DNA of 64,000 bases from a virus, in IMG/VR virus record IMGVR_UViG_3300044655_001189, positions 1-64,000 of that record. One strand, written 5' to 3'. The translations under genes and the position numbers were made by a program. Within the stretch, counting starts at the first letter, position 1, and each line of letters starts with the position of its first letter. Below are positions 11,364-54,400 of this stretch, one piece after another. Under the pieces are notes generated by a model that was not told the origin of the DNA, ran no database searches, and worked only from the letters and a program-made list of their open reading frames with translations.

Positions 11364-11721
11364 TTACGTTAGTGAAGCCAATAGCAGAACTGCCGTCAGT
11401 CAGAATCTCTGGACGTACTACGCGGCCATTGGGCGTGACTACTTTGGTTTGAGTTACCAAGTAAAGTTTATTGTGTAGAATAATCGGTTTAACCGATTTT
11501 CTTCCCGTTTTAGGAAAGTCCACATCAATGCGAGCAATCTGCCCGTTTGGTTTAGACTTTATTGGTAACTGTAGTGCTCTAGCAATCTCTTTGATTTTGG
11601 CAAAGATTCGACCTGCTTTAGCTGGGTCTGGTTGCTCTGCAATTTTGGGTGCAGCACCATTGAGTTGACCCTTTAACTTGAGTAGGTCGGTATTGTTGGC
11701 AAGTGGTTTGTAGGTACGCAT
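11353..11721 (-). CDS. Hypothetical basic protein, first gene of replication operon
   Basis: A 122-residue basic protein, starting at ATG 11721 (MRTYKPLANNTDLLKL). The frame extends upstream to 11760, but that part would translate the GGCAA..TTGCC inverted repeat, so I prefer the inner start. The ATG touches the TCACTATC octamer (11722-11729) directly, so transcription from that site would give a very short leader or none. Contains TGRKSVKPIILHNKLYLV, a beta-hairpin-like basic patch. No family recognised. It heads the operon running to the exonuclease. Confidence 0.7.
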   Translation of the reverse strand: MRTYKPLANNTDLLKLKGQLNGAAPKIAEQPDPAKAGRIFAKIKEIARALQLPIKSKPNGQIARIDVDFPKTGRKSVKPIILHNKLYLVTQTKVVTPNGRVVRPEILTDGSSAIGFTNVNDV

Positions 11722-11729
11722 GATAGTGA
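11722..11729 (-). promoter_or_regulatory. TCACTATC octamer, copy 1
   Basis: On the coding strand TCACTATC immediately precedes the ATG of the gene at 11353-11721. It is one of eight identical octamers found upstream of leftward genes between 11.7 and 18.3 kb. See findings for the shared interpretation as an early promoter or operator. Confidence 0.55.
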
Positions 11730-11741
11730 TTATGTGGTTGT

Positions 11742-11753
11742 GGCAAAATTGCC
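11742..11753. promoter_or_regulatory. GGCAA..TTGCC inverted repeat, copy 1
   Basis: GGCAAAATTGCC, a 5+2+5 inverted repeat, lies 20 bases upstream of the ATG at 11721. Near-identical elements precede the genes starting at 12524 and 13493 at similar distances, so it is probably an operator or promoter part rather than chance. Confidence 0.5.
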
Positions 11754-11772
11754 GATGCAAATAAAGTAAAAG

Positions 11773-11792
11773 CTAAGGGATTCTCCGCTCAG
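11773..11792 (-). terminator. Terminator with GGAGAATC loop, copy 1
   Basis: Read leftward, CTGAG then CGGAGAATCC then CTTAG forms a hairpin followed by CTTTTACTTT. It follows the stop of the gene at 11817-12524 by 24 bases. The loop GGAGAATC is shared with two other terminators at 12568 and 13029. Confidence 0.7.
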
Positions 11793-11816
11793 TATTTACC
11801 TGTGGTAAAAAACAGA

Positions 11817-12524
11817 TTAGTTTTCGAAAGGGTGAACTACCTCTAAAGATGGTTTAACAGCAGTTACCTCGAACTTGCATGGTAAGTCATGCTTGTTGAT
11901 GATTTGCTTGTCAGCGCGTCTGAAAGTCACAGTTTTACCGTAAAACAGAATGTCAATCTGCGCTTCTCCGTTTTTGTAGAACTCTGTTAGTGCATCGTAC
12001 TGGTCTTGAGTTACCATGTAGGTACGATTTGACAATAGCACAGAAGTGCAAGGTGTACCCACTTCTGGGTAACCTTTTGGGTTACGCTTGAATGCAGCAG
12101 CACCTTTAGGAAATAGCATTTGAAGCATTGGTTTGCCAATGATGCCTTGTTTGTTCCAAGGTTGATTAAGCATAGCAACGATTTTGTTTACAAAGAAGTC
12201 ACGTGCTTCTGGGTGCTGCAACAAGTCAGCAGGGTATTCTTTTACACCTGCAAGGTGGCACAATGCACGTAAGCGATTTTCGTTACCAGCAGTAAGTACG
12301 TAGTTTTCGTAATTAGCATCAGCACGTGAAGAGTCGCGTTGTTTGAAGAATATACGTACCATAGGCAGTACACCTGTAGAGCCATCTTGGAATGTGTGGT
12401 TCTTCATTTCAAAGGTTACTAATAATGGCATAACCACGTACTCGTATTTTACACGAGCCTTGAAGTCTTGGTTAGACTTTGAATTAGAAACAGCAACAAC
12501 TTGGGCAACAGACGAATTGTTCAT
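11817..12524 (-). CDS. Hypothetical protein (235 aa), own transcription unit
   Basis: A 235-residue protein starting MNNSSVAQVVAVSNSKSNQ. It has a long beta-rich centre (YEYVVMPLLVTFEMKNHTF, LPMVRIFFKQRD) and a C-terminal beta strand region, so it could be a single compact domain that binds nucleic acid or protein, but no motif is diagnostic. It is bracketed by two look-alike terminators (11773 and 12568), with a GGCAG..TTGCC repeat 17 bases before its ATG, so it seems to be a single-gene transcription unit. That suggests it is needed in large amounts or early. Function unknown. Confidence 0.75.
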   Translation of the reverse strand: MNNSSVAQVVAVSNSKSNQDFKARVKYEYVVMPLLVTFEMKNHTFQDGSTGVLPMVRIFFKQRDSSRADANYENYVLTAGNENRLRALCHLAGVKEYPADLLQHPEARDFFVNKIVAMLNQPWNKQGIIGKPMLQMLFPKGAAAFKRNPKGYPEVGTPCTSVLLSNRTYMVTQDQYDALTEFYKNGEAQIDILFYGKTVTFRRADKQIINKHDLPCKFEVTAVKPSLEVVHPFEN

Positions 12525-12541
12525 TTTGAATTGTTTTTATT

Positions 12542-12553
12542 GGCAGAATTGCC
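12542..12553. promoter_or_regulatory. GGCAG..TTGCC inverted repeat, copy 2
   Basis: GGCAGAATTGCC lies 17 bases upstream of the ATG at 12524. It differs by one base from copies at 11742 and 13519. Confidence 0.5.
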
Positions 12554-12567
12554 GGGTTAATTAAAAA

Positions 12568-12587
12568 CCTATGGATTCTCCGATAGG
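12568..12587 (-). terminator. Terminator with GGAGAATC loop, copy 2
   Basis: Read leftward CCTAT, CGGAGAATCC, ATAGG, followed by TTTTT. A canonical intrinsic terminator for the unit ending at 12609, with the same loop as the hairpins at 11773 and 13029 although the stem sequence differs. Confidence 0.75.
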
Positions 12588-12608
12588 GTAAGCGTAGTCG
12601 TATTAGAA

Positions 12609-12800
12609 TTACTGCATTGAAGCAATAAGCGCAATGTTTTTTTCACGTTGGAATGATGCGTCAACGTAATTAGGCTCGGTAGGCAGTGATATATCGTCCT
12701 CGGTTTCGTCAAAGATGGCAATAGCATCTTTGAGTGTAGAAGCTTCGATGTGAACAGTACCGTACACTTCCCATGTTACAGGGATTTTGAAAGTAGCCAT
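12609..12800 (-). CDS. Small hypothetical protein (63 aa)
   Basis: A 63-residue acidic protein starting MATFKIPVTWEVYGTVHIEAST. The pattern of a beta strand, then E-A-x-T-L-x-D-A-I-x-x-F, then LPTEPNYVDASF, is seen in small phage proteins of unknown role that are widespread in siphoviruses and podoviruses. It starts 5 bases after the stop of the upstream small gene, so the two form an operon bracketed by terminators. Confidence 0.75.
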   Translation of the reverse strand: MATFKIPVTWEVYGTVHIEASTLKDAIAIFDETEDDISLPTEPNYVDASFQREKNIALIASMQ

Positions 12801-12805
12801 GATAA

Positions 12806-12994
12806 TTAGTCGTTAATGAAGCTTGCACCGTAAAAAAACAAGTTGATGTTTAGTACACCGTGTTCACATTCAATAGCAAATAATGCTCTATTGGAATCTC
12901 CATAAGAAAAGCTAATGAATGATAAGCCAAAGCGTTTGTCTGAAGGGTAAACGTAAAGCTGTAGTAGATTGAATTGGAAATCGCGTTCTTCCAT
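12806..12994 (-). CDS. Small hypothetical protein (62 aa)
   Basis: I place the start at ATG 12994 (MEERDFQFNLLQLYVYPSD). The longer open frame to 13048 would run through the terminator hairpin and the TCACTATC octamer. The protein is beta-rich and aromatic. It is the first gene of a two-gene unit with the 63-residue gene. The octamer lies 18 bases upstream. No family recognised. Confidence 0.65.
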   Translation of the reverse strand: MEERDFQFNLLQLYVYPSDKRFGLSFISFSYGDSNRALFAIECEHGVLNINLFFYGASFIND

Positions 12995-13012
12995 GATGGC
13001 GAGAATATAAGT

Positions 13013-13020
13013 GATAGTGA
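13013..13020 (-). promoter_or_regulatory. TCACTATC octamer, copy 2
   Basis: The octamer lies 18 bases upstream of the ATG at 12994 and directly after the T-run of the terminator at 13029-13055. This terminator-then-octamer-then-gene order recurs across the region. Confidence 0.6.
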
Positions 13021-13028
13021 ATAAAAAA

Positions 13029-13055
13029 CCCATGCACAGATTCTCCATGCATGGG
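13029..13055 (-). terminator. Terminator with GGAGAATC loop, copy 3
   Basis: Read leftward, a perfect 8-base-pair stem CCCATGCA/TGCATGGG closes the loop TGGAGAATCTG and is followed by TTTTTT. It ends the unit of the gene at 13065-13493, whose stop is 10 bases upstream. This is the strongest of the three terminators sharing GGAGAATC. Confidence 0.85.
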
Positions 13056-13064
13056 TGTAATGGC

Positions 13065-13493
13065 CTAAAGAAGGATTTTAAGCGTTTCTTCTACTCTAGG
13101 TAGCACATCAGCACCTTTGACGTTGGATAGGTCAACGTAGAAGTCGGCTATGGGCTTAGGCAAGCCAACAGTTTTATCTTCGGAGCGAGGAAACGCTAAT
13201 ATGCGTCCTGTGTCGAAGTTAGCTGCGTAAAGGATATGTATTCCTGGGGCGGCTAATGTGTTAATGACTAAGCTCTCTGGACGTTGTGGACAAGCATCGC
13301 TTTCTTGGTCAACAAGTAAGCTAAACACTCGTAGATGAAAGTTAGCAGGTTTTTCTTTGTGCCTACGCAAGTTGCGCTCGGCTTCTTTACGATTGTAAGT
13401 GGGCGAAAGCGGTTTGACGTTAGCAATAAGATTAAAAGCATCAGCTGGTTCGATGATGCGCAATGCAGCAGGTACTAGGGCTTTTGTGGCCAT
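13065..13493 (-). CDS. Hypothetical protein (142 aa)
   Basis: The start is placed at ATG 13493 (MATKALVPAALRIIEPADAF). An upstream ATG at 13532 would translate the GGCAA..TTGCC element. The middle is basic (YNRKEAERNLRRHKEKP), followed by beta strands and a C-terminal helix. It has no catalytic motif that I recognise. It forms a single-gene unit ended by the strong terminator at 13029. Confidence 0.7.
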   Translation of the reverse strand: MATKALVPAALRIIEPADAFNLIANVKPLSPTYNRKEAERNLRRHKEKPANFHLRVFSLLVDQESDACPQRPESLVINTLAAPGIHILYAANFDTGRILAFPRSEDKTVGLPKPIADFYVDLSNVKGADVLPRVEETLKILL

Positions 13494-13518
13494 TGTAATA
13501 GGTATTTTGTACTGTCGT

Positions 13519-13530
13519 GGCAAAATTGCC
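13519..13530. promoter_or_regulatory. GGCAA..TTGCC inverted repeat, copy 3
   Basis: GGCAAAATTGCC, identical to copy 1, lies 25 bases upstream of the ATG at 13493. Confidence 0.5.
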
Positions 13531-13582
13531 AATGGTTCACGGTTGGGGTCAACGCACTATACCGTGTAATTGCGTAAATAGA

Positions 13583-13738
13583 TTAGCCTTTCAGCCATTT
13601 CTTGAGGTTGTGCTGTACAATCAGTACGTGACCTAAGTCGCTGCGTTTTCGCTTTGGCTGCTTGAGTAGATACTGAATTTCAGCATTTACAGAAGCTAAC
13701 CGTTTTTCCAGTAGCATTGTTTCGCGTGGATTGGGCAT
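13583..13738 (-). CDS. Small basic hypothetical protein (51 aa)
   Basis: ATG at 13738 to TAA at 13583, 51 residues, starting MPNPRETMLLEKRLASVNAE. It is strongly basic (LLKQPKRKRSDLG) with a helical heptad-like N-terminus, so it could bind nucleic acid. It fills a gap between neighbouring leftward genes with a 27-base spacer upstream. The fit and codon pattern are the evidence; no family recognised. Confidence 0.6.
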   Translation of the reverse strand: MPNPRETMLLEKRLASVNAEIQYLLKQPKRKRSDLGHVLIVQHNLKKWLKG

Positions 13739-13765
13739 GGCTTGGTGAATTTGGGTTAAAAATAA

Positions 13766-14020
13766 TTACAGAACGTCAAAGTCCATGTTAGGGTCACTAA
13801 CGCAGTCGAAGCAATACACATCATTGTGGGGAATACTGCATCCACAGTCGGTGCATTCGCTTTTGGTGTTAGGACACCCTTTCTCGTGGAGAGGTGTGCC
13901 GTTAACGACCATTGCAACACATTGGCTGCATTGGACGGTAATGAAAGCGCCATCATGCTTGGATTTGTCGAAGCCTAAATCAATAAGTTGTTCAACGTGC
14001 ATAGCTAAACCTAATTTCAT
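13766..14020 (-). CDS. Small zinc-ribbon-like protein (84 aa)
   Basis: An 84-residue protein with nine cysteines, including CSQC, a CxxxxxECTDCGC block and CFDC, plus two His near them. This suggests two zinc-binding knuckles. It starts MKLGLAMHVEQLIDLG and ends in an acidic tail (DPNMDFDVL). The ATG overlaps the stop of the 54-residue gene as ATGA (14017-14020), indicating coupling. Small zinc-ribbon proteins in phage early regions often bind host transcription or RNA-handling proteins, but nothing here shows the target. Confidence 0.75.
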   Translation of the reverse strand: MKLGLAMHVEQLIDLGFDKSKHDGAFITVQCSQCVAMVVNGTPLHEKGCPNTKSECTDCGCSIPHNDVYCFDCVSDPNMDFDVL

Positions 14021-14181
14021 GGCTTTACGAATAGAGGACGTTCGTGACTATCCTCGCATACTTGGCGGCACCATGCAAGTGCTTGGCCTGTTGGGAAGTG
14101 TTGTTTCCAGATGGCTTGAGCAAGTGCCATACGGTATTTGCGCCCGTACCAACGCTTTCTTAGATTGAGTGAATTATTCAT
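14017..14181 (-). CDS. Small basic hypothetical protein (54 aa)
   Basis: ATG at 14181 to TGA at 14017, 54 residues, starting MNNSLNLRKRWYGRKYRMAL. Arg/Lys/Trp-rich, with a motif YxxAxAQAIWKQHFPTG that looks like a single folded helix pair. It overlaps the zinc-ribbon gene by ATGA and is preceded at 64 bases by the TCACTATC octamer at 14246. An overlapping rightward frame is less likely because it has no place in the transcription units. Confidence 0.65.
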   Translation of the reverse strand: MNNSLNLRKRWYGRKYRMALAQAIWKQHFPTGQALAWCRQVCEDSHERPLFVKP

Positions 14182-14245
14182 TACTTAACCCGATTCGCTT
14201 TTGCTGTTTTCTTGGCTGTACACGGGTAATACAGTTGCGGTGAAT

Positions 14246-14253
14246 GATAGTGA
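14246..14253 (-). promoter_or_regulatory. TCACTATC octamer, copy 3
   Basis: Lies between the stop of the phosphoribosyltransferase gene (14258) and the 54-residue gene, 64 bases upstream of its ATG. Confidence 0.55.
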
Positions 14254-14257
14254 TTGG

Positions 14258-14731
14258 TTAAATGAATTTGACTAAGGCGATACTGGATATGCTAGTAGGG
14301 TCGTAGTCGTAAGCGAGTGACATTAAAGTGTGCAGGGTAATACCACTGGTGGTGGCATCATCTACAAACAGAATGTGTTTATGTGCAAGTCGTTCTGGTT
14401 TGGCAAAGCGAATTGTGCGCATAATAGATCTGGGCGTCCTTCTACCACCTAAACAGAAGCTTGCTGCATTACGAGAGCGAACAAGGCAATTTAAGGGCGT
14501 GTGACGGCCTTTGTAACCCATAACCAACGTAGTGATACTGTTGGTGGTGCCGACCTTGTGAGAGGGCACAGGAATGAGTATGGTGGGGTATTCGAGCGTG
14601 TCAAAGTACTGGTACATTTCAGCACGAAAGAACTCGTAGTCGAACTGAGCACCATCTTTGAAATTCAGAAGCATACGCCTCATGTGGTTAGGCTTGCTGC
14701 CGAATGTGGTGTGTAAGCTGTCTATGTGCAT
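14258..14731 (-). CDS. ComF-like phosphoribosyltransferase
   Basis: A 157-residue protein. HILFVDDATTSGITL (Asp124, Asp125, Thr127, Thr128, Gly130) is the PRPP-binding loop of type I phosphoribosyltransferases. The upstream IPVPSHKVG matches the ComF-family PVP block, and an R-S-R segment follows. Such enzymes transfer a phosphoribosyl group from PRPP to a base or related acceptor; the acceptor is unknown for ComF proteins. A phage copy could serve nucleotide salvage or modify a host target. It lacks the N-terminal zinc finger of bacterial ComF, but the gene just upstream encodes a CxxC protein. It follows that gene by 2 bases. Confidence 0.8.
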   Translation of the reverse strand: MHIDSLHTTFGSKPNHMRRMLLNFKDGAQFDYEFFRAEMYQYFDTLEYPTILIPVPSHKVGTTNSITTLVMGYKGRHTPLNCLVRSRNAASFCLGGRRTPRSIMRTIRFAKPERLAHKHILFVDDATTSGITLHTLMSLAYDYDPTSISSIALVKFI

Positions 14732-14733
14732 GA

Positions 14734-15273
14734 TTAGAAGTATCTGCTACGTTTGAGAGGATGAGTTTTGGAGAGAGCATCGAAGTATGGTTCTCCTGTA
14801 ACGCGGTCTACCTCATTTTTGCAGAGTTGGTAGTAGTCAGAATCAGAAAGATGCGGATGGTGAGCGATATGATTGCTGTGCTCCGTTTTAGAACGGGTGA
14901 CAGAATCATTAGTGCCAATCCAAGGCTTGTGACTGGATAGGCGCTGGCCGCAAATTAAACAGATACGTAATGTATTCGGCTCTTCAAACAAAGGAATGCG
15001 CTCAAGTTTATCCCATTCAGAAACAGGAATACCAACTTGAAAGCGTTTGTCAAGACTATCCCATTTGACCATCCGAAGCTTTTTTTCATCAGCATCTGGA
15101 AGTTTAATGAAGATGCTATCTGGAAAGTCAGGGTGCTTGCGCCCATCATACATTAGAGCAAGATGCTCTAATTCACGGTTAACATCAAATAGCTTGGATA
15201 GAAGCTCAGCTTTACGGACATCTGCATTGTGAACGGCTGAGTCAAGGCTGATATGGAAATGGGATTGTTCCAT
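14734..15273 (-). CDS. Zinc-finger-like hypothetical protein (179 aa)
   Basis: A 179-residue protein starting MEQSHFHISLDSAVHNADVR. At about residues 104-140 CLICGQRLSSH and a following H-rich stretch (HSNHIAHHPH) could coordinate zinc. The N-terminal half is acidic and helical. It is 2 bases upstream of the phosphoribosyltransferase gene and surely co-transcribed. In bacterial ComF proteins a zinc finger is fused N-terminally, so this may supply that part in trans, which is speculative. Confidence 0.65.
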   Translation of the reverse strand: MEQSHFHISLDSAVHNADVRKAELLSKLFDVNRELEHLALMYDGRKHPDFPDSIFIKLPDADEKKLRMVKWDSLDKRFQVGIPVSEWDKLERIPLFEEPNTLRICLICGQRLSSHKPWIGTNDSVTRSKTEHSNHIAHHPHLSDSDYYQLCKNEVDRVTGEPYFDALSKTHPLKRSRYF

Positions 15274-15283
15274 GGTTGTAGAT

Positions 15284-15327
15284 GCAGCGTTGTGAACCCG
15301 TTAGGGCAAGGCCATTACGCTGCGGCC
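15284..15327 (-). promoter_or_regulatory. Structured 5' leader with two exclusive folds
   Basis: In the leader of the gene starting at 15273, GCAGCG (15284-15289) can pair with CGCTGC (15318-15323) around an inner CCC/GGG stem. Alternatively GGCC at 15310-15313 can pair with GGCC at 15324-15327, which encloses the second arm. The two folds exclude each other, which is typical of leader RNAs that control translation or attenuation. Confidence 0.4.
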
Positions 15328-15342
15328 TTTGGTTGGTTAAGG

Positions 15343-15350
15343 GATAGTGA
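15343..15350 (-). promoter_or_regulatory. TCACTATC octamer, copy 4
   Basis: Lies 5 bases after the stop of the gene at 15356 and 69 bases upstream of the ATG at 15273, at the 5' side of the structured leader. Confidence 0.55.
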
Positions 15351-15355
15351 AAGAT

Positions 15356-15709
15356 TTAATGTGCATTACGACACGCTTGTAGTAAGCGTGTTGCATAAGG
15401 CAGTGCGTGGTATTCACGCAGAAATTCCTCGGACAGTTGGCATCTGTGTACTGCCGTATATCCGATTGGTATAACCTCCAGAACACTTGTGATTATGTCC
15501 GCTTTAATCAGGGCTTGCAATATCCCTTCGTTTTCGGAGTAGTTCTTTATTATGGCTTGGTCAACATCTACAAAGCGGTCTATTACTACCGTTGCGGTCA
15601 TAAAGTCCTCCCCTGTGGACTCTTCGTAAAGAGTAATATCCGTCAGGTGACGGTAGGTATCGCGGTACATGACAGCGATACAGGCGGTGTTTAAAAAGGT
15701 AATTTTCAT
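15356..15709 (-). CDS. Hypothetical protein (117 aa)
   Basis: A 117-residue protein starting MKITFLNTACIAVMYRDTY. Alternating hydrophobic strands in the first half and a helix-rich second half with a conserved-looking LSEEFLREYHALPYATRLL end. Similar small proteins occur in accessory regions of many phages, but I cannot name a family. It is preceded by a palindrome (GCCAATATTGGC, 15775-15786) and a three-way-junction RNA. No octamer precedes it. Confidence 0.7.
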   Translation of the reverse strand: MKITFLNTACIAVMYRDTYRHLTDITLYEESTGEDFMTATVVIDRFVDVDQAIIKNYSENEGILQALIKADIITSVLEVIPIGYTAVHRCQLSEEFLREYHALPYATRLLQACRNAH

Positions 15710-15774
15710 TCGTTATGGTGTTGCTCTGAAACCTACATTTGAGTAGGAACGCCAGCATCTAAGTTTTTGGTTAT

Positions 15775-15786
15775 GCCAATATTGGC
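15775..15786. promoter_or_regulatory. Perfect 12-base palindrome GCCAATATTGGC
   Basis: A perfect palindrome in the leader of the gene starting at 15709, just downstream (leftward) of the three-way-junction RNA. It could be an operator or an additional RNA hairpin. Confidence 0.4.
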
Positions 15787-15792
15787 TTTGCT

Positions 15793-15835
15793 CCCCTTGT
15801 CACATCGCTGTGACTAACGCTCTCAGAGCAAGGGG
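15793..15835 (-). ncRNA. Three-way-junction structured RNA element
   Basis: An outer 6-base-pair stem (CCCCTT 15793-15798 with AAGGGG 15830-15835) encloses two perfect hairpins: GTCAC/GTGAC (15799-15814, 6-base loop) and GCTC/GAGC (15819-15829, 3-base loop). All bases of the three helices pair without mismatch. It lies between the stop of the gene at 15848 and the next start at 15709. It may terminate transcription, protect the 3' end or regulate the next gene. The strand is inferred from the flanking genes. Confidence 0.6.
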
Positions 15836-15847
15836 AATTACTACGTT

Positions 15848-16171
15848 TTAGTTAATTGGGCTTAATATCCAATTAGATGCATCGCAGAAGTGAGGGTTAC
15901 GAATAATAGCATATTGAAAATTCAATATATCTTGCGCAAGTCTTGGACATTGAATGCGTCTAGCTTGGCAGGTCATTAGACGAAGCATACGAAGGGCAGT
16001 AGCAATGTCGAATTCGTTGTTGATACCTAAGTAGCATTTGTTGAATTCAATTGCAATGATGTCGTAAGCTATGCCTCGTTTGCCGCTACGATAGGCAGAA
16101 GTGGAGGCTTTGAGTTGTTTGCGTGTGTAGTTAACAATCTCAGGACGGTTGGCAAATGGTACGTGTTGCAT
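15848..16171 (-). CDS. Hypothetical protein (107 aa)
   Basis: A 107-residue, basic, helix-rich protein starting MQHVPFANRPEIVNYTRKQLK. Has CQARRIQCPRLAQDIL and a Trp near the C-terminus. Single-gene unit: the octamer at 16199 lies 27 bases before its ATG and the three-way-junction RNA follows its stop. No family recognised. Confidence 0.7.
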   Translation of the reverse strand: MQHVPFANRPEIVNYTRKQLKASTSAYRSGKRGIAYDIIAIEFNKCYLGINNEFDIATALRMLRLMTCQARRIQCPRLAQDILNFQYAIIRNPHFCDASNWILSPIN

Positions 16172-16198
16172 TGGTAAGAGTATTAGGCACTGTTTGAT

Positions 16199-16206
16199 GA
16201 TAGTGA
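16199..16206 (-). promoter_or_regulatory. TCACTATC octamer, copy 5
   Basis: 27 bases upstream of the ATG at 16171. TAGTG within it can pair with CACTA about 10 bases upstream, forming a small hairpin. Confidence 0.6.
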
Positions 16207-16262
16207 GGTTCCGACACTACATTGGATTGCTCACTGGTGGCTACTGTCACAGCAGTCATAGC

Positions 16263-16292
16263 TCCCTATGCTTTGTTTCCGTGGCATAGGGA
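16263..16292 (-). terminator. 9-bp hairpin after the 73-aa gene
   Basis: TCCCTATGC (16263-16271) pairs perfectly with GCATAGGGA (16284-16292). The hairpin starts 7 bases past the stop of the gene at 16299. There is no T-run, so it may be a processed or stability hairpin rather than a classical intrinsic terminator. Confidence 0.5.
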
Positions 16293-16298
16293 TAGGCG

Positions 16299-16520
16299 TT
16301 AGCCTTTGAAGAGAATGCGGTCAAGACGCGCATACTTTTCTTCTTTGGTTAATAATTCGGTGTTGATTACACGGTCAACACTTAGGCCTGCTGCCACAGC
16401 ATCAGCAATAATTGCTTCATGCTTGCGTGGTTTGCGAGGTGGCGTGGTCAGGGTTTTGCCATATAGTATGACAGGTTCTGAAACACAGGTAATAGTGGTA
16501 ATTCTGGGTCGCTTAGCCAT
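16299..16520 (-). CDS. Small basic hypothetical protein (73 aa)
   Basis: A 73-residue protein starting MAKRPRITTITCVSEPVILYG. It has a proline- and lysine-rich central part (TPPRKPRKHEAI) and a C-terminal helix (LLTKEEKYARLDRILF). A DNA- or RNA-binding role is possible from charge only. An opposite-strand frame of similar length is judged a shadow because all neighbours run leftward and the flanking hairpins fit this strand. Confidence 0.6.
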   Translation of the reverse strand: MAKRPRITTITCVSEPVILYGKTLTTPPRKPRKHEAIIADAVAAGLSVDRVINTELLTKEEKYARLDRILFKG

Positions 16521-16564
16521 TTGATGGTTTATTAAGCTTTGACGGTGTCTGCCATCATCAGTAA

Positions 16565-16611
16565 TCAGGAAACACCCTGACTAGATCCACAATGCTTCAC
16601 AGCAGGTGGAT
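16565..16611 (-). ncRNA. Tandem hairpins downstream of the membrane zinc-ribbon gene
   Basis: Two adjacent hairpins: TCAGG/CCTGA (16565-16580) and ATCCAC/GTGGAT (16585-16611) with a smaller inner stem. They lie between the stop of the gene at 16624 and the start at 16520. Another of the structured gaps in this region; function unknown. Confidence 0.45.
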
Positions 16612-16623
16612 TTCGGCTTTTAA

Positions 16624-17049
16624 TTAGTAACTGTTTAGAAGTTCTTGGTATTCAGCGTGTACAATGCAGTTACCACAGTATGTGTGACCGTTGGTGTGCG
16701 TGTACAATGGGCTGAATGAACCTCTGCGCTCACATGCATAGCAGCGCACTTCAACAGGACGATTAGGTATGTGAACATAACCAACTACCCTTGGCATTGG
16801 CCTTGGCACTGCCACAATAGGAGCTGGCTTAGCCACAGGCTTTTCAAGTTGACCATCTGCTATGTAGAAAGCAGATACAGCTGCAACGAATAGCGCAAGG
16901 AAACAGGCAATGCCTAAGCAGACTGTTGACTGCACCATTGGTATTAGCTGGAATGAGCCAAGCGTGGCTATCCAAACTAAGGTTAGTGAGAAGGTTGGTG
17001 CGATAGCGGCAGCTATCACATTGCGAACAAAGAAATACGTTGCTTGCAT
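16624..17049 (-). CDS. Membrane protein with C-terminal zinc ribbon
   Basis: A 141-residue protein. Residues about 5-35 (VIAAAIAPTFSLTLVWIATL) and about 40-62 (VCLGIACFLALFVAAVSAFYIA) are two membrane segments. A proline-rich linker follows (KPAPIVAVPRPMPR), then a cytoplasmic zinc ribbon CYAC...CGNC (about 108-130) with a nearby His pair. So a membrane anchor holds a four-cysteine zinc module. Possible roles are superinfection exclusion or recruiting a host factor to the membrane; these are guesses from architecture. The octamer at 17091 lies 41 bases upstream of its ATG. Confidence 0.75.
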   Translation of the reverse strand: MQATYFFVRNVIAAAIAPTFSLTLVWIATLGSFQLIPMVQSTVCLGIACFLALFVAAVSAFYIADGQLEKPVAKPAPIVAVPRPMPRVVGYVHIPNRPVEVRCYACERRGSFSPLYTHTNGHTYCGNCIVHAEYQELLNSY

Positions 17050-17090
17050 TGTTACTGGTGACGGTGTTTAGGCAGTCGTCGGCTGAGAGT

Positions 17091-17098
17091 GATAGTGA
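17091..17098 (-). promoter_or_regulatory. TCACTATC octamer, copy 6, with inverted partner
   Basis: 41 bases upstream of the ATG at 17049. A second copy of the core in opposite orientation (CACTATC on the plus strand, 17115-17121) forms a 7-base-pair inverted repeat with it, as expected for a dimeric operator or a hairpin promoter. Confidence 0.6.
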
Positions 17099-17137
17099 GT
17101 GTGCTATGACTACGCACTATCGGGTTATGGTCTAAAT

Positions 17138-17207
17138 CACGGACTTGGAACCGTGTTGCTTCGTATGAAGCAAGGCCTTACAAGGGATGTTCTCCCTTGT
17201 CCTCGGT
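17138..17207 (-). ncRNA. Three-hairpin RNA element, copy 1
   Basis: Read leftward after the stop of the gene at 17210: ACCGAGG, hairpin 1 (ACAAGGGA/TCCCTTGT, 17180-17200), AAGGCC, hairpin 2 (TTGCTTC/GAAGCAA, 17156-17173), hairpin 3 (CACGG/CCGTG closing loop TTCCAAGT, 17138-17155). A second element with the same order, loop and linker but different stem sequences lies at 17547-17613. The compensatory changes support a real RNA structure. It is not a tRNA: the loop is 8 bases and no T-arm or acceptor stem is present. Confidence 0.7.
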
Positions 17208-17209
17208 AA

Positions 17210-17464
17210 TTAGATGGCGCAATACAGGAACTGCAATGAGTGATTGTTCTGGGCACAGACCCAAAGCAATTGTTCAATAGAGAATTCTTGCAACATGAAC
17301 CATCGGTTGTCAGTCCGTGGCACATGAATGTGTGCTGTGTATCTGGCATCAGAGCGAGCCAGACCAAACTTCTCAGGGGTTTGCAATTCAAACCACTGTG
17401 AAACGTGGGTAACATTTAAGTCCTTGTCGTTACAAGGGCCTTGAGCAACAAAATGAAAGCGCAT
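17210..17464 (-). CDS. Hypothetical protein (84 aa)
   Basis: An 84-residue protein starting MRFHFVAQGPCNDKDLNVTHV. Contains many aromatic residues (SQWFEL, NRWFML) and four cysteines or histidines spread along it. Chosen over an overlapping leftward frame because it fits exactly between two three-hairpin elements, with the octamer at 17518 lying 53 bases upstream. No family recognised. Confidence 0.65.
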   Translation of the reverse strand: MRFHFVAQGPCNDKDLNVTHVSQWFELQTPEKFGLARSDARYTAHIHVPRTDNRWFMLQEFSIEQLLWVCAQNNHSLQFLYCAI

Positions 17465-17517
17465 GGTTTATCAATACCTATTCTTGGCTCGTAAGGATTT
17501 GAACGAGTTGCGTGGGT

Positions 17518-17525
17518 GATAGTGA
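17518..17525 (-). promoter_or_regulatory. TCACTATC octamer, copy 7
   Basis: 53 bases upstream of the ATG at 17464. AGTGA here can pair with TCACT six bases on, forming a short hairpin that includes the octamer. Confidence 0.6.
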
Positions 17526-17546
17526 AAGCCTCACTACGTGTTGATT

Positions 17547-17613
17547 ACTGGACTTGGAACCAGTCTGCCAATGCAGGGCCTTACAACCCACCACTACGGT
17601 GGGCTGTCCTCGG
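17547..17613 (-). ncRNA. Three-hairpin RNA element, copy 2
   Basis: Same plan as the element at 17138: ACCGAGG, hairpin 1 (ACAGCCCACC/GGTGGGTTGT, 17583-17607), AAGGCC, hairpin 2 (CTGC/GCAG, 17565-17576), hairpin 3 (ACTGG/CCAGT closing loop TTCCAAGT, 17547-17564). It begins right at the stop of the gene at 17614. Stem sequences differ from copy 1 but pairing is kept, while the loop TTCCAAGT and the linker are identical. Confidence 0.7.
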
Positions 17614-18039
17614 TTAATTGTTATTAGCCATATCAGTGTAGTACTGAATGATGCGGCTTTCTAAGCGATGGAAATGACCTTTGTTGCTTACTACATCAGC
17701 GAGGTCTGTCATGACCATAGATTTGCCATCAGGTAATGGAAGCGTAGCTTTGACAACGATTAAATCAAAAGCATTAACTTCTCCTTCTGACATACTAGCT
17801 AAGGCAGCTTGTTGCAAAGAATGGAAGGACGTTTGTGGAGCACGATTCTTACGCTGTATCAACGTGTATAGCCTGCGTGCTGCTTGTATCTCGTAGTAAG
17901 CTGATACCAACGTGTCGGCCACTCCTAACTTGTAGGATGTAACCTTCACCTGACCATAACGAGGCGTGAACTTGTAAACAAGCGTTTTGCCATCTAATGC
18001 TACTACTCTTAACTCATGGGTAACTGATGCGTTTGCCAT
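17614..18039 (-). CDS. Hypothetical protein (141 aa)
   Basis: A 141-residue protein starting MANASVTHELRVVALDGKTLVYKFTP. Beta strands at the N-terminus, then a helical core (SAYYEIQAARRLYTLIQRKNR) and an amphipathic C-terminal helix. No motif recognised. The ATG at 18039 is preceded after 10 bases by a stable hairpin (18050-18084) and after 254 bases by an octamer (18294), so its leader may be long and regulated. Confidence 0.7.
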   Translation of the reverse strand: MANASVTHELRVVALDGKTLVYKFTPRYGQVKVTSYKLGVADTLVSAYYEIQAARRLYTLIQRKNRAPQTSFHSLQQAALASMSEGEVNAFDLIVVKATLPLPDGKSMVMTDLADVVSNKGHFHRLESRIIQYYTDMANNN

Positions 18040-18049
18040 TTCTTACTGG

Positions 18050-18084
18050 GATGCTCTATAAACTCTTGCGAGAGGTCAAGCATC
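18050..18084 (-). promoter_or_regulatory. Nested hairpin just upstream of a start codon
   Basis: GATGCT (18050-18055) pairs with AGCATC (18079-18084), and inside it CTCT/AGAG (18063-18074) closes a TGCG loop. It lies 10 bases upstream of the ATG at 18039, where it could control translation initiation. Confidence 0.45.
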
Positions 18085-18615
18085 GAAACCTTTTGATTCA
18101 TCGCACAGCAATAGGGTTACGCCACTACAGCGCATTACCTACTACCATGCAATTAAATTTGCTTTAACGAAAGGAAAGCTTTAGCTTTCGCACACGCGGA
18201 TATTTACCACATAAGTAATGATACAACCAATATCAGATTGGATAATCACCGCTATTCAAGACATTACCATCATCGACAATACATCGGCTTGGTGATAGTG
18301 ACCCTTCGGAAACCCACGCTATACCTACGATTGATGCAATCAAATGTAATCAACCATGATACAGATAGCATAATAATAACTACTACTAATAGTATCTATA
18401 TATATATATGTGTGCGAGAAAGATTTTGAATTGTATGTGTGAAATAATCACAGACTATATATCCAAAAAAAGGTGATGGGGGGGATAAACGGAAATGACG
18501 AATGGTACGGGGGTTGGTGGGATGTGTCCCTCCACAGAAGATACTCTTATATCCACGGGTAATACCCTTATGTATTCTGTAATGGTGTTACTCTAGTAGA
18601 AGAGCTTAGAACTCT
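18085..18615. other. Gene-poor region with octamer and AT-rich tract
   Basis: No convincing gene on either strand; a rightward 63-codon frame at 18238 is low-complexity and unsupported. The leader side (to 18294) contains a GAAAGC/GCTTTC hairpin near 18175-18190. Around 18361-18415 lies an AT-rich stretch with TAATAATAA and an alternating TATATATATATA tract, followed by a G-run near 18478-18484. Such an unwinding-prone tract could be an origin or a boundary, but I see no iterons or other origin signs. Confidence 0.5.
18294..18301 (-). promoter_or_regulatory. TCACTATC octamer, copy 8
   Basis: The rightmost copy, 254 bases upstream of the ATG at 18039. No leftward open frame lies between, so a transcript from here would have a long structured leader. 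Confidence 0.5.
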
Positions 18616-19914: not shown

Positions 19915-19974
19915 GATTCCTCTATTCTGGGTTCATTGAGCCGCCCAATGCTATATCGTGTATGTATATAAGAA

Positions 19975-20478: not shown

Positions 20479-20818
20479 GATTTCTATTGATTAGTGTTTC
20501 TGTATCGTGTATGTGTATAAGCATCCCTTCCCTGTCATGTTAGACAGAGTTGCCAGAAGCTTGGTTCGAAAGCTATTGGCACGCTACATGTATCTCTTGA
20601 CATCCCTGTTGGTGCTTGACTGTCCTCTCGATAAACTATCCTTTCGGTAGCATGACGTGACCAAGTTGACGGATGCTAAGTCAGAGCTTGGATTTGTGAG
20701 AGAGCGTGAGAACTGTAACTGGTAACTACTCCGAGGTGGTTTGGACGTCTATCGTTTCAGTCCAGGGGTCAGAGTTTTAGAGCCACCCCTATTGTGTCAT
20801 GGTACTGGTAGAAATGAG

Positions 20819-45462: not shown

Positions 45463-48400
45463 ATGGATGAAGAAATGTTGCAACAGTTACTTGCCGAGCA
45501 AGCTGCTCAAGAAGGACAAGTACAATCTCAAGGACAACCTGTTGCTGCACAGGTAGCCCAACCTACTCAAGCGGTGGGTACACAAATAAGTCCAATGACT
45601 AACCCTTTTCTATCCCCACAAAGGAAGGAGAGGGTTTTGTCTAATACATGGATGGACCATGTCGTTGACGACCCTATCAGTTCTGCTAAGGGTACACCTG
45701 ATGAAGAGTCTGTTCGTTCCTTAAGCGATGAAGAGATAGCACAGCGCTTAGAGTTCTTTGCCAATCCTTCTAGCAATCCACAATGGATGGAGGAAATGAA
45801 AAAAGACTCCGTAGGTTTTGATAGAGCGCGTAATGCTTCGATTGAAGAAGCTGCGCGTAGAGCAAATGAAAAAACTGGCGAACAGAAAGACCCTAATGAT
45901 TTCTGGAAGGAATACAATGGTCAGTATGATACTGAACCTATGGGTAAAAAAGAACAGGACAAGCGCAAACTTGATACCTACTCTGCCAAGATGAAAGAGC
46001 AAGGCTCTTCTGATGAAGAAGTCGGAAACTTAGAATCTATGTGGAATGAATTAAAGAAAGCTAAAACAGGGGTAGATTTAATACCTCATGCTTTAATTAA
46101 CGGCTTGACAGGGGTAGTAGAACAGGGCCATGATTTATACTTACATGGCGTTTCGTTAATAGCTGGTTTTACTCCGAGGGAAACCTTAACCTATAAAGCC
46201 GTAATGATGGGTGGAGCCACCGATAAGTTTATGGAAACAGGTGACCGCAAAGACTTACAGGCAGATAAGTATGACCGTTTTAGAGCGAGTTTAACCGAAT
46301 ACATGAATCAGGAAAATGAAAGAGTAGGTGCATTACCTACAAAAACATTTATTGCTTCTGCAAAAAAAGATGATTTCGTAGGGTCTTTGGTTGCAGGTTT
46401 TGGGGGTACTATGGGTCTTGTACCATCTGCTATTGTTGGCGTTGGAACAATGGGATGGGGCATGGAACCATATATGGCAGGTATGGCAGAAGCCGATAAG
46501 GTTACCAACTCTCGGTTAGCCACAGGAAAAGAAATAGCTGATGCATATCGTGATGGTGACAACGACCAACTTATGTCATGGACAACTAGCATGATCGTTG
46601 GTTTTACCGAAAAACTAGGTTTGAAAAAATTAGGAAAAAGCATAGAGGAAGCGTTTAGCAGTAAAACATTAAAGGATAAAGCAATTCGATTCCTAAGTGA
46701 TTCTGGCATCCAAGGTGCTACTGAAACATTTCAAGGCGGTATAGAACACGTTGGTACGGCTTACAATGAAATCAAATTAGCCAATCCTGAAATGAGTGAT
46801 GCGGAAGCTATGGCTAGAGCGGTCAAGGAAGGGGCATTATGGTACGGCTCTGGCGAAGCATTTGAAACATTTGCTACTACTGCATTAGGCGTATCATACA
46901 TGACTGGTGCTTCACATGTTGCAGGTAAAGCGTGGAGAAAAGCTACTGAAACTCAAGAGCAAAAACTAGCTGCTAAACTTGACGACCCAAATGTATCAGA
47001 AGCTAGTAAGACAATCCTTCGTGACAAGTTTAATCAGTTAAGACAACAAGCATCTGCTGAGTACCAACAAGAGCGAACCATTTTCAAATCATTATCTCAA
47101 GAAGAGCAAACAGAACTAGGTTCTTTAGCGAAAACAATTAAAGTGCAAGAAGAGATATTAGCTGAACAAGACCTTGATGATGATGCAAAACAAATTGCAG
47201 AACAAAGAATAGGTGAAACATTAGCTCGTATAGATGCAATTAAAGCGCCTATCAAAGAGCAACTATTAGAGAAGGATAAAGAGAAGCTTCGTAGCATGGG
47301 AGTTTATACTGTACCAATGGTTGATGGTGTACTAGACCCGACTGCTAAAACACAACTTCATACAGAAGAAGAACAAAAAATTGCTGCAAAAGCCATTGAC
47401 GAGATTGTTCAGACAGGCATAAAAGAGAAGTTGCCTGCGAAACAAATAGCTGCAAACATAGAAGCAGCTGGTCACATGGTAGGTGATGGAATATTGTTCA
47501 CTACTCAAGAGTATGTGGAAATGGCTACGACTAAAGCATTGCCATCACTGACAGAAGCATTTGACGGGAAAGTAACTGCAAAAGAAGTTTCTAATACTGA
47601 TACGACTACTACAACCGAATCTACATCTGAATCTACGGATGATACACTCAAGCCGTTTACAGAGTTAGATGCTAGAAATGATGAACTGAATACCTATTTT
47701 GATGAAAGGAAACGTATAGACGAGATTTATGAATCAGACTGGGATGGTTTATCTGAGGATGAAGCTGATGAACACCGAAATGCCCTAATAGCAAATGAAG
47801 AACAACGAGATATTCTATTTGAAAAGTACGCTTCTCCGAAAGAAAAAAAGGAATACGAAAGATTAGTGGCTAAAGAAAAATCCACATTTGAAAATCTAAA
47901 AAACAGAGTTGGACTTGGAGAAACACGCTATCAGAGGTATCGTAAAGCCAACAATTACAAAGAGTCTGTAATGGACAGGCTATATGATATGACACCTGCT
48001 CGTGCCACATCAACTGAAAGCACAACAGAAGCTACTCCAACAGCAACAGAGCCAGTAGCAGTTACTCCAACTCCAACTGAAAAAGAATTAAGAGATAATA
48101 TTGTAATAGCTGATATTGAAAAAAGAAGAAAAGAAGCTTTAGCTGCCAATGTTAAATTGACTGAATTAACAGGTGGAGCTATAGGCGGAGAAAAAGATTT
48201 TGCTGACCAACTCAATGCTAAATTCGATGCGGAAATAGATGCTGTAACATCAAGTCAGTCTACATCAAAAGCTGATGAAGTAATGGCTGCTGCCAAAGCT
48301 GCTATTGAAAGAGAGCGCGAGGTAGATGATTTACCTTTTGGGGCAAGTGGGAATGATGTTTTTGAAAGTGATAAGGGCAATAAAGAAGGTGATAAAAAGG

Positions 48401-51400
48401 GTGATACAGTTTCCGAATCAAATAAGGAAAGTGAGGCTACGCCTACTGCCAGTGAAGATTCTAAGGCTAAATCCGAATCCAAGTCCGAGTCAAATAAAAA
48501 AGCTGAACCTGTAGTTAAAAAGAAAGCACCTGCTAAGAAAGTTTCCAAACCTAAAGCACCTGCGAAACCTAAAGCTGCAAAGAAGCCTAAAACCACAAAG
48601 AAACCTACGACCAAGCAAAAAGAAGCTGCCCCAACTGTAACGGAAGAAGTTGCACCAGTAACTGAATTACCTACTGATCCAGAAGCGCGCAAAGCAGCCA
48701 TCATAGCGCGTAAAGCAGAGATATTTAAAAGCATTAAAGACCGTTGGTTACCTGATAAAGAAAATCAAACATTTAACATCATAGCCGCTGGACCTGAAGA
48801 GAATTTAGCTGAAATGAAAAAGGATGTTGATGCTATTATTGAATTGGCGAAGTTGAGTATAGAGGAAATGGGAATGACTCTTCAAGAATTTGTGGATGAA
48901 ATGGTGGTAGCCTTTGGAAAAAAATTGCCAAACATCACACAGCTTGCTACTGATGTTTACAATAGCGTAAGTCTAGGTTCTGATACAGTAAGGAATGAAG
49001 TTGATGTATTGATTGACGAGTTTCTGAATGCTGAACCAACAATAGAAACTGAATCGGGTCAGGTGTTGCCTGTAGGTGAAAATCCAGAGCAGCGCACATT
49101 ACGCTCTTCTATTTTGGCAATAGCAGATAGAGCTATGCTCGCAGGTGGAGAATGGTTACGCGAAAAAGACTTTCAGAAGATTGGGTCAAAAGGTAGAATG
49201 AGATACTTCTTTGACAATCCCAAAGCGTATATCGTTATGAATGCCCTTGATGGTTATTCAAGGAATTTGAAGGGCTACTCATTCATGAAAACTCTTCTGA
49301 CCAAAGACGAAGCAATGAACATCATGCAGAATTTCGTTGAGGAAATTGACAAGATGGAAGAGCGTACTGGCTTTAAGCTAGACGGTAAAAAAATCAAAGA
49401 GCCTAATTATGGTGATGTCAATACGGTTGTTCAAGGTTTCTTTAAGGAATTTGAAGCTGCTTGGAAAGATAAAGACCCTGAGAGCTATGCAATCTTTGAC
49501 AAGTATTCAAAGCTTATAGCTGGAATACCTAGCATTAAACCATCATACGCAATGGCAGGGCCAAATGAATGGTCAGACCTTGGGTTGAAACGCCTTGTGA
49601 CGGGATTGTTCAGTGAAGATGGAATGCTATTAAATCCTGATGTTATTACCCAAACTATACAAGGTATTGCTGCTAGTGTGCCACGCGGTGGAGGTAATAA
49701 AGGATTCATCGCAGCCATGCGTAAAGTGGCCTATGGAGCAGAAGGAGAGCAGCAAGTTATAGCTATGCGAATGCTTGACAGAATTGGCGCTTTAGTTGAC
49801 CTTGATTCAGCGCAGATAAACAATAGCGGTGAGCTTAAAGCTATCTTCAACACGTTAGCAAATATGGGTACTGACCAAATTGTAGTGAGCGTATTTGGTA
49901 GTGATGGCATGGTGCGCAGGGAAATAATGAATGTCGCCATTTCCGCCAAAGAATTAGTTTCAAATCTGGTAGGAAAGCTAGACACATACCTTACTCAAGC
50001 AAGGGCTGTGAGTGCGTTTAATTCATTGATACGTGAGTATAAAAACATCAGCAAAGAAGTCACCCATCAAATTGCAAATCAAGGAGCACTTACCCCAGAA
50101 CAAGATATTGACTATGCAAAACGCTTATTGAATTTATACCATGAACGAATCATAAAACCGTATGGTGGGCTATACAATGTAGACAATAGCTATGTAGATG
50201 GAGTGGTGAAATCGCTAAGCATGAAAAATTCTACTAAACCAGTATGGGTTCAAGCTGCAGGGATGATTCAAGTGTTGGACAATAGCAATGTTCGAGATAA
50301 ATTAAGCAATGGCAAAGTAGTCGATGTATTGTCAGAGTCCAGCAGTTACTTCAATTTAATTTCACAATCCATTGTAAACCGTCAGGCAAATGCAACTACA
50401 TGGAGAAATGCTGATGGTGAGAATGTAACTGCACAAGGGCCTAAAGACCACGTTACTTTGGTTACAGATTCTATGTTGATACCTACAGAGGAAGGTGGTA
50501 CTACACCAGCACAGAAGATGCTGAAACTACCTTTTTACAAAAACAATCCTATTCTAAAATTTTGGAATAAGGGAACTACAACAGGTCGGCAATTATGGAC
50601 AGAAGGTAACTTCAAAAAGCAATTTAGTATAGAGCTGGATAAGATGGGTTCCTCTGGCGTATTAGCGGATAACCTGATGGCATTCTTTGACAACACAAAG
50701 GAGAGCTACAAGCACATGTATATGCTCAATGGTGACCGTATGAGAAGATATGTGTTCGATGCTCCACTTCTTTCGTTTCAAGAAATTGGCGATCACTTTG
50801 GGTTGACTAATGGTAAGTTCGACCCTACTACAGCTATTGTAAAACAGTTTGAGCAACGAGCTGCAAATGCATTAGCAGGTGGTGATGTGCAGCTTAATGC
50901 GGAAGGTTTGGATAGGCTCAATTCTACATACCACATTAAATTCAAAATTGAGAATGGAAAGTTTGTAGCTGATGGCGAATTAACCAATAGTGCTAGACAA
51001 GCAAACATCAATGCACTAACTGAAAAATTCAGAGAATTGAATAAGCATCCTGTCCAGTATGAAGGAATGCAACTACGGTATATGGATGCAGTACTGGCAA
51101 TGGCAGCTAAAAATCCTAAGCTGGCTGAACTACTAAATCCTAACCAAGCCTATGATTCACGGTTGCGTAAACTTGCTGCGCTGTATGAAGGAAACAACAG
51201 TATCAATGAGCTTGCATTAAGTGATGTCTTGGTTGGTGACTTGATTAACCTACGTCCGGGCGCGAAGGGAATGAAGGATGCTAAGAGTCAATCAACGGGT
51301 GGTATGAATGTGTCAGCTACAGTCGGCCCATTCTACATCGTTACATTAAAAGAGTTCCCTGGAATGGACTCTGGTTCATTTATGAATGCGCACATGAGTG

Positions 51401-54400
51401 AAGCTGCAGGTCAGGGTGTCATTAACGGACTAGGGCCAAACATTAAGATTGGCTTCTTTGGAGTGGTTCGAAATGGCTTAAAGACTGGACATGGCCTTGC
51501 ATATAAAATGGCTACCATGAATGCGGTGCGAGGTAAAGACGGTAAGAACAAAATGGAGTATGACCATGGAGATTCTGACCAGTACGCTAAACTAGCGCGT
51601 TTAATGGATAGGATAGAAGCTGAAATTACTGCTAAGAATACCAGTGACGTTAAACCACGCATTCTATTCATGCCACCAACTTCTCAGAAGGTACAGCCAT
51701 ATAAGACAACGCCAATCGACCTTTCTACTTACAACGATGACTTTGTTCTAAATGAATCTCATTTTCAAAAGGTAACACCAGAAACACATACAGTCAATTT
51801 CAATATCAATAATGATATGACTGATGGCGCTCGTTCTAAATCACAACTTGTGCAAATGCTTTCTATCATTCAAGAAGCTGTTGATGGACAAGACTTGGCT
51901 ATACGTGAAGCATTCCTTAACAAATTCCATTCAAAAATGGTTGACGTTATGAAGGAGCAAATGAAGGAAGGTTTTAATACTGACCCTGATGTTCTAGCTA
52001 AACAATTGATAGAGCAAGTTTTTGGAAACGATATGTCATTCAGTTCAAAAGCTGCACTACAGCATTTGAAAAATCTATTTGAGGACCCGAATATTACACA
52101 CCATATTGAAGATGAAAATCTATTTGGCACAGCACTAGGTAAGCTTACCCAAACATTCAATAGGGTGGCTATGACTATGCAATTAGATGGCGGTACGCTG
52201 CAAACGTTCCCTGACCTTGAAACAGACCCTAACAAAAGGCTTAAATGGAAAGATGCTAATGGTACTGCGTTAATCAATCCAGAGGTAGCTGTACCGCCAT
52301 CAATGGGTGCTATTGGCGACCTAATTATTTTGGCTCGCGTACCATCATCAGGTTCTGAATCGATGTTCGTTGGTAGAATAGTGGGGCACCTGCCAGCAAA
52401 TGTAAATGGAGTGAAAGTTCCATTTGAATACTTGCTTAATTCCAACTCCGACCATGATGGAGATATGCTTCATGCGTTTATAGAAAAACAAAGCAAGGCT
52501 GCTAAAAAAGCATTCGTTGATTTTATGATGAGTACCGAAGCCATGTTGTCGCCAACGTTTCTACAAAGGCGTGACAAGCCATTAACATTGGATCTACTGG
52601 ATAATGCTTTAAATAGAGCTGGCTTGCCGAAGGTTAAGGTTAGCTTGAACTCCGTAATGGGTAGAATGAATATCCTAGATCAGATGAACTCAAGTTCGTC
52701 TGCTATTGGAATATTTGCCAATGCTAAAAAAGTGTTTACAAACTTGGCTGCATCAGGTAAGAGTACTGTAGAGCCAACTCAAGTTTTAATCAACGGCAAA
52801 GTAGAAAATGCTAAAGCTTACAGTACAAAGAATCTTCCAATGATGGGAGAGCTATTGCAAGCTGCCTTGGATAAGTTCGATAATCTGATGCTGTCCAGAA
52901 TGGGTATTGACATGGCGAACATAAATGAGATTGCTCTATTGGCAAACTTAGAAACGCGCAACAACGAAGTAATGAGTTATGACGACATCATAACGCTCTT
53001 ACAGTCGCCCGAAATGAAAGCGTATGTCAAGGGCGTGAATGATTTGATTAGCCCATTTGAAGGTAAGGACACTGCTTGGCCCAAGGATAAAACAAATATC
53101 CTAGACCTATTGATGTCTAATTCGCAAAACAATGGACTGAACAAAGAAATACTTGGCCTTATTCGTTTAGCGGTTGTTGAAGGTAATCAATTGAATGCAG
53201 TGGCATCTATGACTAGCTTAGACAAAGGGATGCAGTATGGCATGGGTCAAGTGTTGCACGTACTAGATATGTACAATGCATTAGAAGCAGGTAAAACGGG
53301 CTATCTTCAATTATTTAAAAACGCATTGGGCAAACATCATCATGAGGTGTTGGAGCTGTTTGTGAATACAATGAAACAAATGTCATTGTCATTTGGAAAT
53401 GATGCTGTCAGAGGAGCGCAAGATATATGGGATGCGCTAGGAATCTATGACCGTAAAGCAAAACATTGGGAAAAGCTTGCGACCATTGGAAACAAAATGC
53501 TTAATGCTACGGTGACCATAAAAAAGTATGACAATCCAGATGCGTTTGTGCAATCTTTTGGAGAGTTTCTATATGGATTGAAGAATGGTAGCGATACCAT
53601 GTACCCAATCAATAGCACTAGCGATACTGAAATTGACCAGATAGCAAATTTACAAGCGATGCAAGAGTTTGCGAATAATGCAAGAGAACAATTGCTGGCA
53701 AATAAAACTTCTCCAAAGTCAAATCCATTGAGCAATACTGCCAAACAAAAATACTTGGCACAAATTTCTGATTATGTGATTGCAAAAAACATGGTGAGCA
53801 CATTGACAAACAATGTATTCATACGAAATCTAACCGTCATTAAAGACAGGAATACAGGAAAGGTTATTGTAAACCTGAGTAGGAATGCGCGACAGTTAAA
53901 TGGAGTAGATAAGGCAGCTTTACTTGCAGCGTATGAAAAATTGCCACAACAGTTTAGAGATTCATTGCATGACTTTGCATTGCTAAATACAGGCTCTAAG
54001 ATTACACCATCTTCATTGTGGTCGTTACTACCAAATAGTTCAGTAGAACGATACAACGCAGCCACTAAGCTCATCAATGACCAAAAAGAAGGAGCTGCAT
54101 CAACTCCAACTACCGCTAAGAATAATGCTGAGTTTAGCGAAGCGTTAATGATGGAAAGCATGGATATGCTCGGAGCAGTAAGAGTTCCGCAAGGAAAGGT
54201 ATTCTCTGACATATTTAGAACTGTAGCTACTGGCTTAACTCAAGACCAAAAGAATGGTTTAGTTGGTAAATTGAAATCATACTTTCCAAACTCAGCAGAA
54301 CAGATACTTGCTGCCAATGGAGAAGTGTTTGAGATAACTCATCCTGCCACGACTATAGGCGCCATGACCAATGGTAAAATGAGTTACAGAGGAACGCCAA

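Follow-up and report, generated by a model that had tools for sequence, protein, structure and literature searches.

A candidate promoter octamer before small early genes of a crAss-like phage

Identical copies of an octamer, TCACTATC, precede small leftward genes in the early region of a phage genome that we analysed over a window of 64,000 nucleotides (positions 1 to 64,000 of IMG/VR record IMGVR_UViG_3300044655_001189). We propose, with a probability of about two in three, that the octamer with its following bases, TCACTATC(A)(Y), is a phage-specific promoter of small early units, likely read by a virion RNA polymerase. It would drive leftward units, each comprising one gene or a few. A promoter function is well supported by the strict strand bias of the octamer, its intergenic placement, the turnover of its sites, its abutment on start codons, the A that follows it and the terminator before one copy. 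The initial annotation of this DNA had suggested that the octamers serve many small, independent transcription units as promoter or operator; this is the best-supported reading, with the promoter favoured over the operator. Three points had been missing from it: the crAss-like nature of the phage, its probable virion RNA polymerase, and the probable identity of several ‘hairpins’ noted before octamers as ribozymes or a terminator.

Distribution of the octamer

All eight copies in the window lie on the minus (coding) strand in gaps between genes, from 11,722 to 18,301 (Table 1), just where they had been reported, and counting over both strands of the window revealed no further copy. The eight copies compare with 1.9 expected and with a maximum of 5 in 100 shuffles. 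No copy falls inside a gene or in a late region of the window, and the interpretation stands. When the count was extended to the full record (70,113 bases, both strands), nine copies were found, all on the minus strand, the ninth at 68507-68514. Leftward intergenic DNA makes up about 2% of the strand positions. Within the 7.4-kb early stretch TCACTATC is the commonest 8-mer (8 copies versus 0.14 expected), and eight copies of any 8-mer arose in only one of 500 dinucleotide shuffles of this stretch. Other over-represented 8- and 9-mers (GCAGGTGG, GGCGTTCCT) lie mostly within genes and seem to reflect codon or repeat effects.

The distances from the end of the octamer to the likely start codon, taken in order from 11722 to 18294, are 0, 18, 64, 69, 27, 41, 53 and 254 bases, in agreement with the range first described; the ninth copy, at 68507, stands 0 bases from the ATG of a leftward gene of 131 aa. 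At 13013 the mechanical ATG of ORF 12806-13048 falls upstream, within the terminator hairpin, and the start codon is likely the one at 12994 instead. The block headed by the copy at 11722 contains the genes for DnaB, Sak4 and an exonuclease.

Table 1. Octamers, ribozymes, terminator and candidate polymerase gene in the window (G001, the related phage)
Feature	Position	Strand	Context
Octamer	11722..11729	-	Followed directly by ATG (11721) of ORF 11353-11721; heads DnaB/replication block
Octamer	13013..13020	-	7 bases past strong intrinsic terminator stem; ATG 12994 18 bases on; homologue G001:4013
Octamer	14246..14253	-	Lost here in relative, with a copy ~80 bases downstream, on far side of conserved RNA element
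Octamer	15343..15350	-	Flanked by stop codon of ORF 15356-15709 and by 45-nt fully conserved element; homologue G001:6689
Octamer	16199..16206	-	ATG of ORF 15848-16171 27 bases on; homologue G001:8320
Octamer	17091..17098	-	Downstream of twister-P5; homologue G001:9519
Octamer	17518..17525	-	Downstream of twister-P5; degraded to TCACTACT in relative, where a new copy abuts GTG of next gene (G001:9953)
Octamer	18294..18301	-	ATG of ORF 17614-18039 254 bases on; homologue G001:10739
Type II hammerhead ribozyme	16543..16618	-	Rfam 42.8 bits, gathering 37; past stop codon of ORF 16624-17049
Probable Twister-P5 ribozyme	17139..17207	-	Below Rfam gathering, E 9.4e-4; past stop codon of ORF 17210-17464
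Probable Twister-P5 ribozyme	17548..17614	-	Below Rfam gathering, E 8.5e-4; directly past stop codon of ORF 17614-18039
Intrinsic terminator	13028..13056	-	13 pairs and T run; loop with GGAGAATC; ends 7 bases before octamer 13013
4309-aa ORF	45463..58392	+	Active-site pattern of crAss-type RNA polymerases (ARVPSSGSES...SNSDHDGDML); candidate octamer reader

Conservation and turnover of sites in a related phage

Scans of viral contigs and genome contigs for relatives yielded one full relative, one 5-kb fragment and two distant DnaB loci; in one viral-contig scan the gap setting was so narrow that even the full relative would be missed. This relative, IMGVR_UViG_3300036985_004421 (hereafter G001), has a TerL that is 94% identical and an early region of ~80% DNA identity. 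Comparing the gaps of the two phages, a check proposed with the initial annotation, bore out the pattern: G001 also has nine octamers, all of them leftward and six at matching places, and TCACTATC is the commonest 8-mer of its early region too. A base-by-base comparison of the five homologous early sites shows an unchanged octamer at each, with differences in the neighbouring bases at four. The sixth homologous pair is 68507 and G001:61634.

The other three octamers of each genome are moved or new. Two of these non-homologous pairs retain the same gap or gene, namely 14246 versus G001:5462 (where the octamer may fall within the first codons of a small ORF) and 17518 versus G001:9953. Turnover with a constant total is the behaviour of a position-flexible functional site. 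The octamer is known from two genomes only. TCACTATC is not enriched in phi14:2 or in Flavobacterium phage Fpv1, two phages with related polymerases, and neither yielded an equally clear motif of its own; thus, by this comparison, the octamer sequence is specific to this lineage.

Motif shape and the predicted transcription start

Among 12 independent sites the eight invariant bases are followed by A in 10 and then by a pyrimidine in all 12. The bases upstream of them show no conservation. A start codon is directly abutted by five of the 18 copies in the two genomes (ATG at 11722, 68507, G001:7398 and G001:61634, GTG at G001:9953). Since this abutment would place the transcription start at or before the A of the ATG, the octamer, if a promoter, would cover about -8 to -1. 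We infer that transcription starts on the purine right after the octamer; where the start codon stands directly past it, some messages would be leaderless. No Shine-Dalgarno sequence is evident upstream of the start codons, as is expected for phages of Bacteroidota.

Operators are another possible reading of short, identical sites that precede many start codons: a repressor or activator would bind the octamer to control the early genes. We regard this as very improbable, given that the octamer is not palindromic, occurs in one orientation only, abuts start codons exactly and has no second conserved promoter element beside it.

Ribozymes, a terminator and other elements in the gaps

Three ribozyme matches were found in three neighbouring gaps, each beginning just past a stop codon, and two of the three are followed by an octamer in the genome of the window; all three recur in G001. 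The type II hammerhead has the CUGAUGA/CGAAA core and the stems of its class and scores 41.7 bits in G001. The twister-P5 matches score 29.8–32.8 bits in the two genomes against an Rfam gathering threshold of 37.6; their core is identical in the four copies of the two genomes, and stem changes are compensated. The presence of ribozymes and a terminator in octamer gaps supports the idea of many small transcription units. Each unit would end at an intrinsic terminator or have its transcript trimmed by a self-cleaving ribozyme just past the stop codon, the latter being a putative role.

The octamers had initially been described as lying usually right after a hairpin, which holds for some of them. 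A terminator hairpin precedes the copy at 13013 and a GGCAATTTTGCC hairpin the one at 11722, whereas no clear hairpin is found at 14246 and 15343, nor at 68507; at 16199, 17091 and 17518 the octamer itself can form the 3′ arm of a small hairpin. Because the ribozymes lie past stop codons and the terminator before 13013, several of the noted hairpins may well be the tail of the previous unit (terminator or ribozyme).

It could be asked if the octamer acts in RNA, with a nuclease or another protein recognising UCACUAUC in a long early transcript and cutting or binding it, so that 5′ ends come to lie near start codons. The sites are strand-specific and intergenic, in a region rich in self-cleaving RNAs, and the octamer pairs in a small hairpin at three of them, one such hairpin persisting in G001 despite the loss of the octamer. 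Such a role is nevertheless improbable: one copy lies directly past a strong terminator, where a processing site is needless, the copies share no surrounding structure, and the motif has a sharp end, the octamer followed by an A typical of initiation. The octamer as part of a ribozyme was ruled out, as it is present without any ribozyme (11722, 68507, G001:7398) and on either side of RNA elements.

The gaps hold further elements. Hairpins at 11779, 12574 and 13039 (minus strand) have the loop GGAGAATC in common, each with a T-rich run behind it; the scan called only the one at 13039 a terminator. Hairpins of the GGCAATTTTGCC type at 11742-11753 and 13519-13530 (minus strand), with a variant near 12545, are found a short way ahead of three start codons, some accompanied by an octamer and some not. 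The 45-nt element AAAGGCCGCAGCGTAATGGCCTTGCCCTAACGGGTTCACAACGCTGC at 15285-15330 (minus strand) is fully identical in G001 between differing flanks, has no Rfam match and could form a pseudoknot in which AAGGCC/GGCCTT is crossed with GCAGCG/CGCTGC; it is possibly a new kind of ribozyme. At 14180-14257 (minus strand), past a stop codon, a possible H-type pseudoknot is conserved, with CTGTA/TACAG changed to CTGCA/TGCAG in G001 and the loop ACCCG able to pair with CGGGT; the octamer lies on opposite sides of this element in the two genomes. The gap 15714-15847 (minus strand) folds strongly (z -3.0), contains the block TAACCAAAAACTTAGATGCTGGCGTTCCTACT, conserved in G001, and has no Rfam match of note. 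Another conserved element, at 16207-16298, has no class. The other conserved elements tested folded no better than shuffles by a method that is blind to pseudoknots.

A candidate virion RNA polymerase

Judged by its proteins, the phage is crAss-like (Crassvirales-related). The best relatives of its TerL and portal are crAss-like phages at 21–25% identity, the TerL matches being crAss and Flavobacterium phages at 22–25%, and a protein of 1,729 aa matches gp44, the muzzle protein of a solved crAss-like virion (E 3e-14). The active-site stretch of the giant 4,309-aa ORF (ARVPSSGSESMFVGRIVGHLP...SNSDHDGDML) follows the same pattern as that of the phi14:2 virion RNA polymerase (YRIPNQGQSSNDPLQIVGILP...GSDFDIDKM), with a DxDxD catalytic loop in the context RxPxxGxxS...IVGxLP, and the pattern is conserved in G001. 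In hhalign the family of this ORF and the crAss RNA polymerases (profile of the PDB 6vr4 family) aligned exactly at the active site, with an E of 3e-4 and a probability of only 38%. The AlphaFold model has a pLDDT of 33, and a two-barrel fold is not readable from such a model.

The virion RNA polymerase of crAss-like phages works independently of the host enzyme and transcribes early/regulatory and replication genes (PMC10136315). The octamers head small leftward genes and, through the copy at 11722, the replication block. Since these are the genes that such a polymerase transcribes, we propose the octamer as its promoter: the giant enzyme, injected with the DNA, would probably read it, as in other crAss-like phages. 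The link between the two is by association, and we infer the identity of the polymerase. The fuller picture, in which a crAss-like virion RNA polymerase has an 8-base promoter that touches the start, produces partly leaderless messages and serves units separated by different self-cleaving ribozymes past stop codons, is plausible and is put forward tentatively.

The same association leaves some room for a promoter whose reader is the host RNA polymerase, assisted by a phage factor, or some other phage enzyme, a reading that we consider unlikely. Genes at 18.6–20.5 kb, just upstream, have no octamer, and two of them have another repeated AT-rich leader (TTATAYACATACACGATAYAG), so two or more classes of promoter may be active early. 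A -10 element of the sigma type, however, lies 6–7 bases upstream of the start, and at the five abutting sites this spacing would move the start into the gene. Sites like those of sigma-70 promoters (-35 and -10 hexamers) are not enriched in the region above shuffles (16 versus 23 expected).

An AT-rich 26-mer, CTATATCGTGTATGTATATAAGAATC (plus-strand letters), occurs with 88% identity at 19951-19976 and 20500-20525 (minus strand), before two leftward octamer-free genes. It may be a second promoter class; its exact core was not found in the early region of G001.

With a short, sharp motif and a predicted start base, promoter recognition by the crAss-type polymerase family becomes directly testable. 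Early genes separated by ribozymes plus terminators would, if true, offer phage ribozymes a natural function that can be tested. The literature searched, to which the main structural paper (Drobysheva 2021) did not belong, contained no description of promoters of crAss-like virion RNA polymerases, and promoters are nowhere mentioned in a 2023 review of Crassvirales (PMC10136315).

Comparison with known systems

The first seven bases of the octamer, TCACTAT, match the T7 class III promoter exactly from -8 to -2 and lie at the same place relative to the predicted start. Unlike a T7-type promoter, the octamer comes without the conserved -17 to -9 part, has C at -1 and would start on A. A T7-like single-subunit polymerase was looked for and none was found, by a motif search and by a PF00940 search that was weak, giving no match in any control genome.

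The octamer also resembles the late promoter of PhiKZ, where TATG overlaps the start and is read by a two-barrel phage polymerase: both are very short, start-touching motifs without an upstream element (PMC7598289). The PhiKZ promoter differs in its sequence, in serving late genes and in being read by a multisubunit, non-virion enzyme. In jumbo phages, whose early promoters are read by virion polymerases, a single conserved motif before early operons was found bioinformatically and later confirmed as a promoter (PMC7598289, PMC10770324), and early promoter motifs vary between these phages (PMC7598289). A single conserved motif before early units is common to the octamer, to jumbo phages and to the early promoters of the virion polymerase of Thermus phage P23-45; the latter two are AT-rich, and those of jumbo phages are centred near -10, whereas the octamer has three C in eight bases and abuts the predicted start. 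The N4 virion polymerase recognises a conserved small hairpin around -11 (PMC4496689). A hairpin promoter of this type was ruled out here, several sites having no evident hairpin, none being common to all and nothing being conserved upstream.

As in crAss-like phage phi14:2, whose virion polymerase is PDB 6vr4, the candidate enzyme is encoded by a giant ORF among structural genes and has the same active-site pattern; the overall sequences are too distant for ordinary searches. The ribozymes share conserved cores and stems with known type II hammerheads and twister-P5 and are intergenic in a phage, as are phage hammerheads elsewhere (PMC3088659). They differ from known phage ribozymes in their arrangement, three in neighbouring gaps, each past a stop codon and two then followed by the octamer.
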